Origin: Adhaeribacter rhizoryzae
Lineage (GTDB): Bacteria; Bacteroidota; Bacteroidia; Cytophagales; Hymenobacteraceae
Assembly (NCBI RefSeq): GCF_008629685.1
Contig: NZ_VWSF01000015.1
Span: forward strand, 1-64,000
Reading direction: 5' to 3'
Length of the DNA stretch: 64,000 nt
A model generated the notes under the pieces. It was not told the DNA's origin. It saw only the letters and a program-made list of their open reading frames with translations, and did not search any database. Below, one piece after another: positions 11,470 through 61,371 of this stretch (position 1 is the stretch's first letter; the number at the start of each line of letters is the position of its first letter). The position numbers were made by a program, and so were the translations under genes.

Positions 11470-14430
11470 GTGAAAAAAATATTCATGAGTTTAGCGTTGC
11501 TGTCGGGTTTAGCCCTTTCGCAATGTAAAACCCCCAATACCCAATCGGCTTCTACCGCTACCGAAACACCGGCTGCGCCCGAAGAAAAAAAGTACAACTA
11601 TACCACCGTACCCAACGACCCGCTGAAGGCGCGTATTTATACCCTCGATAACGGCTTAACCGTTTACCTCAGCGATTACAAAGATGCGCCGCGCATCCAG
11701 ACCTATATTGCGGTGCGGGCGGGCAGCAAAAACGACCCGGCTACCGCTACGGGTTTAGCGCACTACCTGGAGCACATGGTATTTAAAGGTACCTCCCGCC
11801 TGGGTGCCCGCGATTTCGCTAAAGAACAAGCCGAGCTGGCCAAAATAGAAAACCTCTACAATGTATACCGGACTAAAACCGACCTGGCCGAACGCAAAAA
11901 AATATACTACCAAATAGATAGCATTTCTGGGGTAGCGGCCAGTTATGCCGTTGCCAACGAATACGATAAAATGGTGGGCGCCATTGGTACCAACGGCTCC
12001 AATGCGTATACCTCGGTAGAACAAACCGTTTATACCGGCGATATCCCGGCCAACCAGGTTGAAAAATGGGCCCAGGTAGAAGCCGAACGTTTCGGGGAGC
12101 TGGTGCCGCGCCTTTTCCATACCGAACTGGAAGCTGTTTACGAAGAAAAAAACCGTTCCCTCGACAGTGATGGCAGTAAGGTTTTTGAGGCCTTAATGGC
12201 CGGAATATTTCAGAAACACCAGTACGGAACCCAAACCACCATTGGTACCGTCGAGCACCTGAAAAACCCGTCTATTACCGAGATCAAGAAATATTTCGAG
12301 GCCTATTACGTACCCAATAACATGGCCATTGCCATGAGCGGCGACTTGGATTACGACCAGACTATTCGCACCATCGATAAATATTTTGGTAAACTAAAAA
12401 ACCAGCCGGTTCCGGCTTACAACCCACCCGCCGAAGCACCCATTACCCAACCCATCGTGAAAGAAGTATTTGGCCCGAGTGCCGAAAGCATTCGCTTGGG
12501 TTTCCGGTTTCCGGGTATAAAATCCAAAGAGGCACTGGTTCTGAAAATGATTAGCCAGCTATTATCAAATGGCCAGGCGGGCTTAATCGACCTGAACCTG
12601 AACCAGAAACAAAAAGTACTGGGTGCCTCGGCCGGCGAGTACACCATGAACGATTACAGCGTGCTGCTGCTGGGCGCCACGCCGCGCCAGAGCCAAACCC
12701 TCGACGAAGTAAAGAATATTTTGCTAAGTCAAGTGGAATTGGTAAAGCAAGGCAAGTTTGAAGACTGGCTGATACCGGCCATCGTAAACAACACCAAAAT
12801 TGCCGAAATGAAAGCCTTCGAGAGCAACGAAGCTAGAGCCGATGCTTTTGTGAGCGCCTATATTGCCCATCTGGATTGGAAAGATTACCTGGCGATGCGC
12901 GATGAATTTGCCAAAATAACCAAGCAGGAAGTAGTTGATGTTGCCAATAAATATTTGGGCCCGAATAATTACGTGGTGGTTTACAAACGTACCGGCAAAG
13001 ACCCGAATATTCAGAAAGTAGAAAAGCCCACCATTACGGCGGTACCCGTTAACCGCGATGTGCAGTCGGAGTTTTACAAAACCGTTATGGCTGGCAAAAC
13101 CCCGGAGCTGAAACCGGTATTCCTGGATTACAAAAAAGACGTAGGTGAAACCAAAATCAAAAATAATATTCCGGTTTACTTTACCCGCAACCAGGAAAAC
13201 GGCTTGTTTAACCTGTACTACGTGCTCGAAACCGGCACCAACAACAACCCCAAACTGGGCCTGGCGGTTAATTACCTGAAGTATTTAGGCACCGATAAGT
13301 TCAGCGCCGAGGAATTACAAAAGGAATTTTTCAAACTGGGTTCTTCTTTCGATGTTTTCTCGTCGCAGGAGCAGGTGTATGTAAGCTTAACCGGCCTGGA
13401 TGATAATTTTGAAAAAGGGCTGGCCTTGTTCGAAAGCGTGCTGCAAAACCCACAACCCGATCAGCAAGCTTTACAAGACATGGTAGCCGGCGTGTTAAAA
13501 GAACGGGCCAATGCCAAACTGAACAAAGGCATTATTCATTCCCAGGCCATGGTGAACTACGCCAAATACGGCCCTAAAAACCCGTTTACGAATATTATAC
13601 CGGAAGCAGAACTGCGTAAAGTTAAGCCGCAAGAGTTGGTAAGTTTAATTAAAAGCATCCCGACCTACGAGCACCACATTTTGTACTACGGCCCACGCGC
13701 TACCGAAAACTTAACAGCGGCTTTAAACACCGGTCATATCGTGCCGGCCAACTTAAAACCCGTTCCTCCTTTAAAAGTATTCCCGGAAAAAGACTTTACC
13801 GACCGCCAGGTTTACTGGACTGATTTTAACATGGTACAGGCCGAGCTGCTTTTCCTGACGAAATCCTTTAACTTCAACAAAAACCTGGTACCCACCATTA
13901 CGTTGTACAACGAATATTTCGGCGGCAACATGGGTTCTATTGTATTCCAGGAATTGCGCGAATCGAAGGCCCTCGCCTACTCGGCTAGTTCGCGTTACGC
14001 CAACGCCAGCCGGAAAGACCGGGCCAACTACATTTTATCTTACATTGGTACGCAATCGGATAAATTACCGGAAGCAACAGCCGGCATGCAGGCCCTGCTC
14101 AACGAAATGCCCCAGGCCGAAGCCAATTTTGCCAACGCCAAAGAAAGCATCCTCAACAGCATCTCTACCGAGCGCATCACCAAATCCGATATTTTATTTG
14201 ATTATGAGCGGTCCAAACGCTTAGGCCTGGATTACGACATCCGGCAGGATATTTACCAAAGTGTAAATTCCCTCACCTTTACCGATATGAAGAAATTTCA
14301 GGAGCAATTTGTAAAAGGCCAAAACCAGGTCATCCTGGTTATCGGCTCCAAAGAGCGCTTAAACTTTAAAGAGTTGCAGAAATACGGCAAAGTAAAACAG
14401 CTGAGTTTGAAAGAACTGTTTGGGTATTGA
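11470..14430 (+). CDS. M16-family zinc metallopeptidase, lipoprotein
   Basis: 986 residues from a GTG start. The signal peptide ends in LALSQC, with Cys19 the likely lipidated residue, so it is periplasmic and membrane-anchored. The inverted zinc motif HYLEH (98-102), in HYLEHMVFKGT, is characteristic of pitrilysin/insulinase peptidases, and the downstream glutamate is in ELEAVYEEKNRS. The protein has the duplicated layout of two active-like plus two inactive halves (about 45-530 and 560-980). The second half lacks the zinc motif, as is normal. The role is degradation or processing of peptides in the envelope; the substrate is unknown. It stands alone between two terminator-like structures. 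Confidence 0.9.
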   Translation: MKKIFMSLALLSGLALSQCKTPNTQSASTATETPAAPEEKKYNYTTVPNDPLKARIYTLDNGLTVYLSDYKDAPRIQTYIAVRAGSKNDPATATGLAHYLEHMVFKGTSRLGARDFAKEQAELAKIENLYNVYRTKTDLAERKKIYYQIDSISGVAASYAVANEYDKMVGAIGTNGSNAYTSVEQTVYTGDIPANQVEKWAQVEAERFGELVPRLFHTELEAVYEEKNRSLDSDGSKVFEALMAGIFQKHQYGTQTTIGTVEHLKNPSITEIKKYFEAYYVPNNMAIAMSGDLDYDQTIRTIDKYFGKLKNQPVPAYNPPAEAPITQPIVKEVFGPSAESIRLGFRFPGIKSKEALVLKMISQLLSNGQAGLIDLNLNQKQKVLGASAGEYTMNDYSVLLLGATPRQSQTLDEVKNILLSQVELVKQGKFEDWLIPAIVNNTKIAEMKAFESNEARADAFVSAYIAHLDWKDYLAMRDEFAKITKQEVVDVANKYLGPNNYVVVYKRTGKDPNIQKVEKPTITAVPVNRDVQSEFYKTVMAGKTPELKPVFLDYKKDVGETKIKNNIPVYFTRNQENGLFNLYYVLETGTNNNPKLGLAVNYLKYLGTDKFSAEELQKEFFKLGSSFDVFSSQEQVYVSLTGLDDNFEKGLALFESVLQNPQPDQQALQDMVAGVLKERANAKLNKGIIHSQAMVNYAKYGPKNPFTNIIPEAELRKVKPQELVSLIKSIPTYEHHILYYGPRATENLTAALNTGHIVPANLKPVPPLKVFPEKDFTDRQVYWTDFNMVQAELLFLTKSFNFNKNLVPTITLYNEYFGGNMGSIVFQELRESKALAYSASSRYANASRKDRANYILSYIGTQSDKLPEATAGMQALLNEMPQAEANFANAKESILNSISTERITKSDILFDYERSKRLGLDYDIRQDIYQSVNSLTFTDMKKFQEQFVKGQNQVILVIGSKERLNFKELQKYGKVKQLSLKELFGY

Positions 14431-14493
14431 TAAGCTGTTATATGCAGGAAAACCTTAATAATAAGTTCTTAACTTTAAATATTATCACAGGTA

Positions 14494-14564
14494 CATAATT
14501 GCAAATTCTAAAAGAAAAAGGACAATACAATATTGTCCTTTTTCTTTTAGAATTTGCAATTATG
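14494..14564. repeat. Perfect 71-base palindrome (34-bp arms)
   Basis: CATAATTGCAAATTCTAAAA and onward to 14527 is matched exactly, base for base, by its reverse complement at 14531-14564, with only CAA between. Its position 60 bases after the M16 stop suggests a terminator or a mobile-element relic. Arms this long and perfect are unusual for a simple terminator, and it lies 10 bases from the GIY-YIG element. Confidence 0.9.
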
Positions 14565-14573
14565 TTTTTTCAT

Positions 14574-14956
14574 CTTTGTCATTCAGGAGGAAACTATTTA
14601 GCCTATTCAAAAGCGCTAGCTACAATGCTTAAAGGCAACTATTTCGTTTATATAACCTCCAATCCGAAAAAGACAGTTCTTTATACTGGCGTTACAAATG
14701 ATTTACCAACCAGGCTACAACAACATTTTGAGAACAAAGGAAATTCAAGCACTTTTGCCGGCAAATTTTACTGCTATAAACTACTTTACTACGAAAGGTA
14801 TTCTGATGTAAATATTGCTATTGATAGAGAAAAAGAAATCAAAGATATAAGCCGGGATAAGAAGTTAGAGTTAATCAAATTAATAAATCCTTACCTAGAC
14901 TTCCTTGTAGTCAGCGGCCTTGAATAGGCCAAATAGTTTCCTCCTGAATGACAAAG
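14574..14956 (+). mobile_element. Compact inverted-repeat element carrying a GIY-YIG nuclease gene
   Basis: 383 bases. The left arm 14574-14627 (CTTTGTCATTCAGGAGGAAA, then CTATTTAGCC and so on) is matched by the right arm 14903-14956 in inverted orientation over about 54 bases with roughly eight mismatches. The only gene starts with the final ATG of the left arm and stops inside the right arm, so the arms encode both protein ends. The same TGTCATTCAGGAGGAAAC core recurs as gene-less palindromes at 31431-31497, 42562-42653 and 61301-61371. No target duplication is evident. I interpret it as a small autonomous element with MITE-like derivatives; this is inference. Confidence 0.7.
14625..14927 (+). 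CDS. GIY-YIG family nuclease (UvrC/Slx1-type single domain)
   Basis: 100 residues from ATG 14625. A longer frame from 14499 exists, but its first 42 codons only translate the palindrome and the left arm. The fold signature is visible: YFVYITSNPKKTVLYTGVTN with the tyrosines and glycine of the GIY-YIG pair, Arg in LPTRLQQH, and the catalytic-type Glu in IDREKEIKDISRDKK. It contains only the nuclease domain; such stand-alone proteins cut or nick DNA in homing and mobile settings. Its exact enclosure by inverted repeats suggests it acts on the arms, as an inference. Its base composition is AT-rich relative to the neighbouring M16 gene. Confidence 0.88.
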   Translation: MLKGNYFVYITSNPKKTVLYTGVTNDLPTRLQQHFENKGNSSTFAGKFYCYKLLYYERYSDVNIAIDREKEIKDISRDKKLELIKLINPYLDFLVVSGLE

Positions 14957-15038
14957 TGTATAAATAAGAGTTAAGAGCTATTTTGAGTCGTAAGCAAGTC
15001 GCGAAAGTATTTTCTGCGCCTTAATGTGGAAGATTTAT

Positions 15039-15917
15039 TTAAAAGCTTTCCTGTTCTTTAAGAAGCTTATCCTGATACTTCAATAAATTTGAATTCGAAA
15101 TTTTGTGTTGAATAGGATTATTTGAACCTCCTAATGGATAACACATCCAAACTACATCATTTAAGAACTTTACCTTGTTCGTTTGTATTAACATACACCA
15201 TGTATACCCATCATTAGATAAACCAAAACCTAATTCACTAAAATTATTTATAGACATCACTTTAGTTAAAATCTCAACTTCAATTTTAGCACGATTATCT
15301 TGCCCCTCTTCAACTTCGAATCCATCATTGCCAAAAACAGCTGTTGTATTCACATCGAAAAGTATTGCACCACGATGTACATTAAAATGTGAATTCCTAA
15401 CATAATTAGCAATTTTACCCGCTATTTCATTCCATATAATTCTTGGTTTTGGACTACTTGCCATCTCCTCATTATACATTTTAACAGTTTGCTCCCAATC
15501 AGTCTTTGCCTTTATAATATCATTCCGAGTTAATTTTCGGGTTATATCATCACCTTCTCTATGGGCAATATCATGATCATTTGGACAAAGTACTGCAAGG
15601 TTTTCATATGAGTTATCTTGGGTTTCAGAATACTTTTTAATATGATGTAAAATAAAGCTATCGCTTTTTTTACCTTTGCAAATGCAACATGTAAAATTAC
15701 TATTTCTAAGTAATTTGTAACTGACATCTTCCTCAATAGGCTTCCTTTTAACACATTTCTTGATGAATATAACCTGCTGCTCAGAGAGTGAATATTTTTC
15801 CATTAGCTCTCTTTTAGCCAACTTTCTAAATTCAGTTATGTTTGCACCAGCATTTATCAAGTAAGATGCTAAATCACTATGTACGCCATAACCTGTAAAA
15901 GTATTAATTGTAATCAT
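15039..15917 (-). CDS. HNH endonuclease domain protein
   Basis: 292 residues. The N-terminal 65 residues are uncharacterised. The HNH/zinc region spans about 75-120: C77-x2-C80, FILHHIKK (91-92), Asn106 in YENLAVLC and the closing CPNDHDIAH. The layout CxxC...HH...N...CxxxH is the ordinary metal-dependent HNH nuclease finger. The remaining 150 residues form an unrecognised domain that could bind DNA or ligand (for example RIIWNEIAGKIANYV). The gene is clearly more AT-rich than its neighbours and lies next to the GIY-YIG element, suggesting acquisition. It could be a stand-alone restriction-like nuclease; no methylase is nearby. Confidence 0.8.
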   Translation of the reverse strand: MITINTFTGYGVHSDLASYLINAGANITEFRKLAKRELMEKYSLSEQQVIFIKKCVKRKPIEEDVSYKLLRNSNFTCCICKGKKSDSFILHHIKKYSETQDNSYENLAVLCPNDHDIAHREGDDITRKLTRNDIIKAKTDWEQTVKMYNEEMASSPKPRIIWNEIAGKIANYVRNSHFNVHRGAILFDVNTTAVFGNDGFEVEEGQDNRAKIEVEILTKVMSINNFSELGFGLSNDGYTWCMLIQTNKVKFLNDVVWMCYPLGGSNNPIQHKISNSNLLKYQDKLLKEQESF

Positions 15918-16224
15918 TATGCCTTTACTTACTTTTTGGATAAGATAAATTTACTTTACAATAAACGAATAAACTCTACCTTTTCAATTCTAATTAATAA
16001 ACAAGTAGTATCAGTACTTCATTCATCATTAAAATAGTCGCTTAATACTGATTATACAGAGTTCCTCCGTTTATCCCCAGTTCCCGGCATATATAAGTAA
16101 TAATCTTCAATTATTTGTTGTTTTAATAGCCTTTGATTTACTATTTAAATGAAGATAATTCAAATTTATTTTGAAATAGATGAAGAATATTCAGCTATTT
16201 ATATACAAACTTAAATAAAAAAAA
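15918..16224. other. Intergenic region, about 300 bases
   Basis: AT-rich DNA between the HNH gene start and the isocitrate dehydrogenase terminator. No gene, RNA or clear repeat is seen. Confidence 0.4.
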
Positions 16225-16255
16225 GACTACTGATTTAAATGTCAGTAGCCTTTTT
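16225..16255 (-). terminator. Terminator of isocitrate dehydrogenase
   Basis: On the minus strand GGCTACTGA/TCAGTAGTC arms are flanked by A5 and T8 tracts, starting 18 bases past the stop codon. Confidence 0.85.
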
Positions 16256-16272
16256 AAATTAGTTTATTACAA

Positions 16273-18558
<2,286 letters not shown>

Positions 18559-31333: not shown

Positions 31334-31430
31334 GCTGGAATATTTAAAAAAATATTTGGGAAAGGGGGGGAAACAATTATTAAAATAAAATAGCTTTTAC
31401 CTATTTACTTTCTATAAGTCTTTGAAGCCC

Positions 31431-31497
31431 ACATCTGTCATTCAGGAGGAAACTTGTTAGTAAGTCACGAACAAGTTTCCTCCTGAATGACAGATGT
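31431..31497. repeat. GIY-YIG-type palindrome without gene, copy B
   Basis: Perfect 28-bp arms, ACATCTGTCATTCAGGAGGA (31431-31450) continuing to 31458, and its complement 31470-31497, with an 11-base spacer. It shares the TGTCATTCAGGAGGAAAC core with the GIY-YIG element at 14574. The remainder of the 313-base gap is gene-free. Confidence 0.85.
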
Positions 31498-31646
31498 AAG
31501 TTCCATAAGCTTTTATCCTTTTAAACTCTTGCTAAAAATTAAAGCTTTGCCCGACTACTTGCCGGTGAAAACTCACAGCAAGGGTACTGACTAGCCTATA
31601 ATTATTATGCTATACAGCTTCCATGTAAGGTTATAGTTTAATAAAA

Positions 31647-39362: not shown

Positions 39363-39435
39363 TCCAACGCTGTCAATCCAAAAGAATCTTGCCAGTAGGC
39401 AGCCAATAAGATTCTTTCAGAATGACAGCGTTGGG
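39363..39435. repeat. Related palindrome with a different body, copy E
   Basis: Arms TCCAACGCTGTCAATCCAAA (left, 39363 on) and its near-complement ending GAATGACAGCGTTGGG enclose AGAATCTT/AAGATTCT. The outer CCAACGCTGTCATTC equals that of the copy at 61301, but the body replaces AGGAGGAAACTATTT with TGAAAGAATCTTATTGG. Roughly three mismatches between the arms. Confidence 0.75.
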
Positions 39436-42561: not shown

Positions 42562-42653
42562 CCCACACCTGTCATTCAGGAGAATTCATAGAATTCCAGA
42601 GAAAACTATTTGGCTACCTGCTAAATAGTTTCCTCCTGAATAACAGATGTGGG
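42562..42653. repeat. Palindrome copy C, left arm interrupted by about 18 bases
   Basis: The right arm (AAATAGTTTCCTCCTGAATAACAGATGTGGG) pairs with CCCACACCTGTCATTCAGGA plus GAAAACTATTT on the left, but GAATTCATAGAATTCCAGA interrupts the left arm (about 42582-42600). It shares the core of the GIY-YIG element. Confidence 0.75.
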
Positions 42654-61300: not shown

Positions 61301-61371
61301 CCACCCTTGTACTTCAGGAGGAACCTATTTAGTTACCTGCCAAATAGTTTCCTCCTGAATGACAGCGTTGG
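61301..61371. repeat. GIY-YIG-type palindrome without gene, copy D
   Basis: CTTCAGGAGGAACCTATTT on the left pairs imperfectly with AAATAGTTTCCTCCTGAATG on the right; ACGCTGTC flanks the core. The outer end matches the copy at 39363, the body matches the GIY-YIG element. Confidence 0.8.

Follow-up and report, generated by a model that had tools for sequence, protein, structure and literature searches.

Does a nuclease gene enclosed by its own inverted repeats, with gene-less palindromes of the same core elsewhere on the contig, represent a mobile element even though its enzyme is not a transposase? This question is raised by positions 14574 to 14956 of the window, by which we mean the whole 64,000-nt stretch of Adhaeribacter rhizoryzae DNA analysed here. 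By linking the structure of the locus, the distribution of its repeats, and comparisons with related loci in other genomes, we propose that it may be one member of a widespread pair consisting of a stand-alone UPF0213-like GIY-YIG nuclease and YGTC-tagged palindromic repeats.

The window element

The features of the window referred to below are as follows.

14574..14625, plus strand: left arm, a TGTC-tagged repeat whose outer 26 nt are perfectly inverted to the right arm
14625..14927, plus strand: GIY-YIG nuclease ORF, 100 residues, UPF0213-like
14905..14956, minus strand: right arm, an inverted copy that contains the stop codon (14925-14927)
31436..31492, no strand: gene-less 57-bp palindrome, REPIN-like, with a degenerate conserved flank of ~20 nt on each side (dG -26.6, z -11.6)
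39405..39426, minus strand: single repeat of a second type (GTCATTCTGAAAGAATC), a type that flanks GIY-YIG genes in congeners
42570..42645, no strand: gene-less palindrome of 76 bp, a variant of the same family as the arms
61308..61364, no strand: gene-less 57-bp palindrome of the same family as the arms, one tag of which reads TGTAC

The earlier note on this DNA had described a GIY-YIG gene that begins at the end of a left arm and stops inside a right arm, the arms being near-perfect inverses of 54 nt. The inverted pair, the position of the gene, and the nature of the enzyme all hold, the last through a PF01541 domain (E 7.7e-14; 52.2 bits against a curated cut-off of 22.6); the arms, however, are 52 nt each and 88% complementary, and only their outer 26 nt are perfect. 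The ORF is open from 14562, and translation from an ATG at that position would run across the left arm; ATG 14625 is the probable start, since ATGCTTAAAGG and the arm immediately upstream can be recognised in A. aerolatus. Pfam matches of the protein are confined to two GIY-YIG families, with no HuH Y1 tyrosine transposase among them, and the only solved relatives returned by profile search are the UPF0213 proteins PDB 1zg2 and 1ywl (E 1.8e-10 and 1.8e-7). Positions Y9, Y20, G22, R30, H34, and E69 are among those invariant across 27 sequences; we take the invariant Tyr, Tyr-x-Gly, Arg, His, and Glu to be the GIY-YIG active-site residues with catalytic roles.

A perfect 35-bp hairpin (14493-14565), possibly a terminator, lies directly upstream of the element, and the equivalent position in A. 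aerolatus also holds a hairpin, though of another sequence. Downstream, 14957-16217 has no listed long match in congeners. The blocks on either side of the element (11500-14431 and 16218-17500) map to separate places in 7/7 congeners, which marks the region as rearranged, and no clean empty site was found for the window copy; its counterpart in A. aerolatus is a truncated remnant.

Gene-less palindromes and the 57-bp repeat

The gene-less palindromes with the arm core that had been claimed for the window were found at the three positions listed above. At up to 3 mismatches, the 18-nt arm core has eight matches in the window, against 0.02 expected from shuffles; at up to 2 mismatches, the 6.5-Mb genome holds 286, where the reversed control gives 1, so that the copies beyond the window that had been set as a check do exist. 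Across 464 kb (the window plus 400 kb of contig C1), 14 of 17 plus/minus core pairs span exactly 57 bp, the remaining three being the gene itself (377), the 76-bp form, and a 152-bp form; five core matches are single. All 37 pairs spanning 50-64 nt measure exactly 57 bp, in a set to which 20 loci had been added for containing such a pair. When folded, two of the 57-bp units gave near-perfect hairpins, at dG -23.5 and -26.6 kcal/mol and with z about -11.5. Variation occurs at stem positions 17, 20, and 21, yet the two arms agree there in 33, 33, and 35 of the 37 copies, where 22.6, 23.2, and 23.8 would be expected. The window repeat carries the tag TGTCAT, which is paired with an opposite tag in the 57-bp unit and has the conserved flank outside it; one window arm folded by itself forms only a 3-bp stem (dG -0.4), with neither an 8-9 bp stem nor a CCA tail.

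The 57-bp palindromes lie predominantly between genes: 35 of 37 are outside ORFs of at least 100 codons, although such ORFs make up ~80% of the window and C1, and two of the 35 are between divergent ORFs. A target-site duplication was looked for and not found, none of the 37 copies being immediately flanked by a direct repeat of at least 3 nt. A degenerate flank of ~20 nt with CCCAC borders the 57 bp on both sides, and might, we suggest, constitute an outer stem or a target preference. Scanned for on its own, the flank motif adjoins palindromes at the best 14 of 44 hits; most of the weaker hits are not beside palindromes and resemble background. Read from outside to inside, for example at 31416-31435 and 31493-31512 of the window, the flank is aAGt.taaG.AacCCAc..c, and it is not obvious on the arms of the gene.

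GIY-YIG genes with arms in other loci and genomes

The genome from which the window derives has 8 GIY-YIG genes. The four small ones possess inverted arms: three of them represent three clearly distinct types, and the arms of the fourth (C16, degraded) belong to the window type. The four others show no exact inverted repeat longer than 11 nt. Beyond this genome, the best 80 of 467 candidate loci from a search with the window protein were taken, mainly from Bacteroidota with some from KSB1, Calditrichota, Chlorobiota, and others, and 74 of them had the 250 bp required on each side of the gene. Strict tags were found on both sides of 53/74 GIY-YIG genes versus 5/861 other ORFs of the same loci, loose tags on both sides of 61/74 versus 37/861, and an inverted-repeat score of at least 20 at 33/74 versus 5/800 sampled ORFs.

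In an order-level survey conducted with no control, GTCA[TC] was present on both sides within 300 bp in 22/30 loci (one, L183, doubtful), where the 30 include the window itself and several that are one gene fetched twice. Three more loci (L189, L192, and L196) have strong arms without this tag, and the other five (L181, which is cut by a contig end, L185, L186, L190, and L197) do not have tags on both sides. The tag in the surveyed loci is YGTC, followed mostly by A and then T or C, and not GTAG.

Homologues were also identified by tblastn in 22 plasmid and 12 phage records, for 15 and 1 of which, respectively, arms were examined. Inverted repeats scoring at least 26, such as CGTCATCCTCGGGCTTGACCCGAGGATCCA, occur in 10 of 11 alphaproteobacterial loci, some of which are from close strains and for which there was no control; the tag has been lost from the right arm in S. 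meliloti, and Sinorhizobium K101 has an inverted-repeat score of 18 without a tag. The two gammaproteobacterial loci differ, with arms in Aeromonas and none in Photobacterium. Tags with weak arms are present at the Spirosoma and Planktothrix loci, and the Rhizobium phage locus, the one examined, has no arms.

Enzyme types and repeat types vary together

Recurrence of arm sequences and distances between arms both link particular enzymes to particular repeats. The 16-nt arm heads recur 0.78 times per own locus versus 0.08 times in other loci (permutation p 2e-4), as calculated from 45 of the 47 clear-arm loci among 80 examined, with L042 alone contributing 16/35 hits. Arm distance correlates with protein distance (Mantel r 0.546, p 0.0005; the largest value in 2000 permutations was 0.170) over 97 loci, drawn from 157 with the gene and 99 with matching arms; 46 of the 4656 pairs, being syntenic, were excluded, and this flank comparison was meant to remove pairs arising from genes that had been fetched twice (L037 and L118, for example), some of which are in this set as well as in the comparison of the G114 loci. 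Enzyme and repeat thus co-vary by both measures, and paralogues within one genome carry different arms.

Counts of repeat types per genome are less uniform. G000, whose genes carry arm types B and D, has the most matches to both within the genus (11 and 17, in each case counting the two arms themselves), the counts elsewhere being at most 3 (B) and 8 (D). The window's genome contains 29 type-C matches but no gene with arms of that type, while G001 and G004, where genes do carry such arms, have only 6 and 5 (two per genome being the arms); these counts agree less well with a reading in which the enzyme spreads the repeat, and move a little weight to the passenger explanation considered below. 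The type A core persists in two genomes without a homologue, G005 (15 matches) and G007 (33). When the gene and a narrow REPIN pattern were compared per genome across the order, the proportions were 16/47 versus 8/99 overall, which is significant, and 5/35 versus 6/97 outside the own family, which is not (p 0.16); this test is weak either way because the pattern used, GTCATNCNG, misses many repeat types. A ~200-bp repeat at L027:15914-16118 (G000 C1:215914-216118), which has about ten further genome copies, may be a larger gene-less derivative, as several type-B matches fall within its copies.

Unit copies, gene-less sites, and persistence

Copies of whole arm-gene-arm units were found in the order-level relative G114, in which all 12 GIY-YIG genes have GTC-tagged sequences, of several types, on both sides within 250 bp. 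Units L228, L229, and L231 resemble one another (89% identity for L228-L229 and 79% for L228-L231) over a stretch that starts some nine bases ahead of CGTC and ends with GACG, and their flanks are unrelated. In a second G114 family (L230, L234, and L235) the likeness extends outward to an additional inverted sequence.

Contrary to the refuting pattern of always-filled loci named in the earlier note, sites without the gene exist in Azospirillum, Adhaeribacter (G005 and G007), and Sphingobium. In Azospirillum lipoferum the gene lies between sufB and sufC with a repeat pair on each side, while four other species lack both the gene and any CGTC repeat at that position, an unrelated hairpin being present in strain B510. 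A second Adhaeribacter GIY-YIG locus is filled in five genomes, is empty in G005, and holds one repeat in G007; no counterpart was found in G002. The two arms of this locus are alike, and the arm type differs between most species, G001 and G004 sharing one. Among close Sphingobium strains, TomTYG46 and TomMM15 carry the gene between two repeats, and among the shorter sites (3 of the 4 records examined) TomTYG64 and TomTYG74 have a short palindrome only; the TomTYG64 palindrome is identical to what a deletion between the 8-nt direct repeats in the arms would leave, and that of TomTYG74 is a variant. TomTYG72 has an unrelated repeat at the site.

In a comparison with the A. aerolatus copy L129, the gene is absent at G000 C1:156.6 kb, but divergence of the intergenic DNA prevents an exact junction from being placed. 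A joined-flank test found no empty site for any of 16 own-genome units. Joined flanks gave one presence/absence case of a gene-less palindrome, in Pedobacter: L073 has a 130-bp palindrome beside the left arm, absent from L076 and L071, which may be a local duplication given that it adjoins another repeat.

The sufB-sufC gap (L147, L146, L152, and L154) is a recurrent landing place, in that it holds a GIY-YIG gene with repeats in Azospirillum lipoferum and Shinella PSBB067, and a DUF559 gene in Sphingomonas. The latter (L154:1070-1555, Sphingomonas parapaucimobilis) has inverted GGGGAGGGG-type repeats on both sides. We take DUF559 to be of nuclease character, and the gene is perhaps a second kind of repeat-associated nuclease.

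In the loci fetched, different species within each of Rufibacter, Pontibacter, Winogradskyella, Pedobacter, and Chryseobacterium have the GIY-YIG gene at one shared site. The 40 most syntenic pairs listed do not, however, include Pedobacter L090, L099, and L104 or Pontibacter L044 and L045. Values of dN/dS are 0.02-0.13 in 5/7 ortholog pairs, the other two being saturated at synonymous sites. Taken with the invariant residues, same-site orthologs and low dN/dS indicate that the enzyme has been kept intact in place over long times; RAYTs, which evolve fast, likewise persist in place over long times. A free-hopping insertion sequence was considered and dropped in view of the same-site genes in different species of several genera. 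Defence was also considered as a function and rejected, the PADLOC matches being weak.

Proposed mechanism and alternative explanations

The bounded structure, copy number, enzyme-repeat pairing, unit copies, gene-less sites, and purifying selection are all computed from sequence, and they suggest that the enzyme family helps to spread palindromic repeats. On balance we favour a REPtron-like pairing in which the nuclease recognises and nicks the tagged repeat and the hairpin is spread by the host. The enzyme would bind its repeat, probably in the form of a folded single strand such as may arise on the lagging-strand template, and would nick it near the YGTC tag; host replication and repair could then copy the hairpin, or move it, to further positions between genes, with no target-site duplication. 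TnpA-REP processes single-stranded REPs, according to the accessible parts of a study of that enzyme (PMC8266576), and the GIY-YIG enzyme may by analogy process its repeats in single-stranded form.

Measured against these results, much of the earlier note stands. An enzyme gene bounded by its own repeats, accompanied by gene-less units with the same core, is borne out by the arms and by the 286 core matches, and the analogy that it drew with REP/RAYT elements gains support from the position of the gene between two inverted repeats and from enzyme-repeat co-variation. Its autonomous element with non-autonomous derivatives survives in part: gene-less palindromes at an otherwise occupied site (Sphingobium) and unit copies (G114) are what such a pair predicts, but same-site orthologs in five genera and low dN/dS speak against an element that hops freely.

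We consider it unlikely that the enzyme is instead a site-specific single-strand nuclease that recognises the repeats in the service of the cell, for instance to limit the uptake of foreign single strands or to handle replication intermediates, with no spreading and with the repeats kept for that purpose or left as relics. Same-site persistence and purifying selection would suit such a role, as would the reported action of the Ssn GIY-YIG enzyme of Neisseria at a sequence with hundreds of copies, and its reported effect on transformation. Nevertheless, the arm-gene-arm copies at unrelated sites look like mobility, gene-less palindromes occur where the gene is otherwise present, and arms follow the enzyme rather than the site; a cellular task is, moreover, compatible with mobility.

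Quite unlikely, in our estimate, is an explanation in which the repeats are older and were spread by a RAYT or other transposase, the GIY-YIG gene being a homing-type passenger that landed on REP palindromes. GIY-YIG enzymes are known as homing nucleases, repeat-bearing genomes without the gene (G005 and G007) and the abundance of type C in a genome without a type-C gene would be expected of such a passenger, and Sphingobium has a palindrome where other strains carry the gene between two such repeats. That palindrome (TomTYG64), however, is equally what a deletion between the direct repeats of the arms would leave, and a passenger does not account for enzyme type and arm type varying together or for the different arms of paralogues in one genome. 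Finally, that intergenic repeats are simply so common that any small gene seems flanked is scarcely credible, for although 37/861 control ORFs have loose tags on both sides, the strict-tag and inverted-repeat counts set the GIY-YIG genes far apart from other ORFs, and other GIY-YIG genes of the same genome are unflanked.

Returning to the pairing of nuclease and hairpin that we favour, the broader proposition that the YGTC-tagged REP superfamily is spread by stand-alone GIY-YIG nucleases could, in our judgement, equally well hold or fail. If true, arm-gene-arm units of ~380 bp would rank among the smallest autonomous mobile elements of cells, without any transposase, and the system, found in Bacteroidota, Alphaproteobacteria, and other phyla, would have converged with REPtrons. 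If the enzyme does drive the spread, dissemination of repeats by a resident single-gene enzyme would have arisen at least twice, from unrelated folds. The present analysis puts forward a candidate enzyme, together with its likely cognate repeat at 99 loci (some duplicates), and the question can thereby be addressed using small purified proteins and short oligonucleotides.

Comparison with known systems

Among known systems, small GIY-YIG enzymes with repeats of their own have reportedly been described as Ssn nucleases (Nat Commun 2025): the Neisseria enzyme is said to be single-strand specific, to have a cognate sequence (NTS) in hundreds of genomic copies, and to act on transformation. The likeness, a small GIY-YIG nuclease together with a cognate sequence in hundreds of copies, is close, and that paper probably covers part of the enzyme-repeat link. 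Should NTS be the same as dRS3, the cleavage step would be supported and part of the novelty removed. In the sections available of a study of CGTC-tagged REPs, dRS3 is equated with CGTC-1 (PMC3733652). The UPF0213 proteins of solved structure (PDB 1zg2 and 1ywl), of unknown function, resemble the window protein in size and domain. MITEs with a parent insertion sequence are comparable in having gene-bearing and gene-less units with common ends, but differ from the system considered here, which has no transposase, no target-site duplication that we could find, and palindromic arms.

A link between GIY-YIG nucleases and REPs was not found in the openly licensed full texts searched, which is weak evidence of novelty, nor in the accessible portions of PMC9465073 and PMC10928387. 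Likewise, the portion available of a survey of GIY-YIG proteins (PMC1564403) does not mention UPF0213, YhbQ, or COG2827.

REPtrons, which comprise RAYT/TnpA-REP and GTAG-tagged REPs, provide the nearest parallel in the parts of the literature available to us: their enzyme gene is flanked by two inverted REPs (PMC2817692, PMC8266576), enzyme and REP co-vary, and gene-less REPs and REP pairs lie between genes. A strong link of enzyme and REP abundance has been described for RAYTs (PMC2817692, as available in part). The two systems differ in that REPtrons employ a HuH Y1 transposase and a GTAG tag, whereas a GIY-YIG enzyme and a YGTC tag are used here.

For the CGTC-tagged REP superfamily, no dedicated transposase was known as of 2013, as stated in the sections available of the study by Di Nocera and colleagues (PMC3733652). 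There the tag is given as CGTC or TGTC followed by AT, the repeats form head-to-head pairs, and the hosts include Alphaproteobacteria, Bacteroidetes, and Chlorobi. The window repeats depart from this description in their weak single-arm stem and in having no CCA tail, whereas the arms of Rhizobiaceae, with a tag, AT first in the stem, a 9-bp stem, a 5-nt loop, and a CCA tail, match the CGTC-tagged REPs when compared by that written description.
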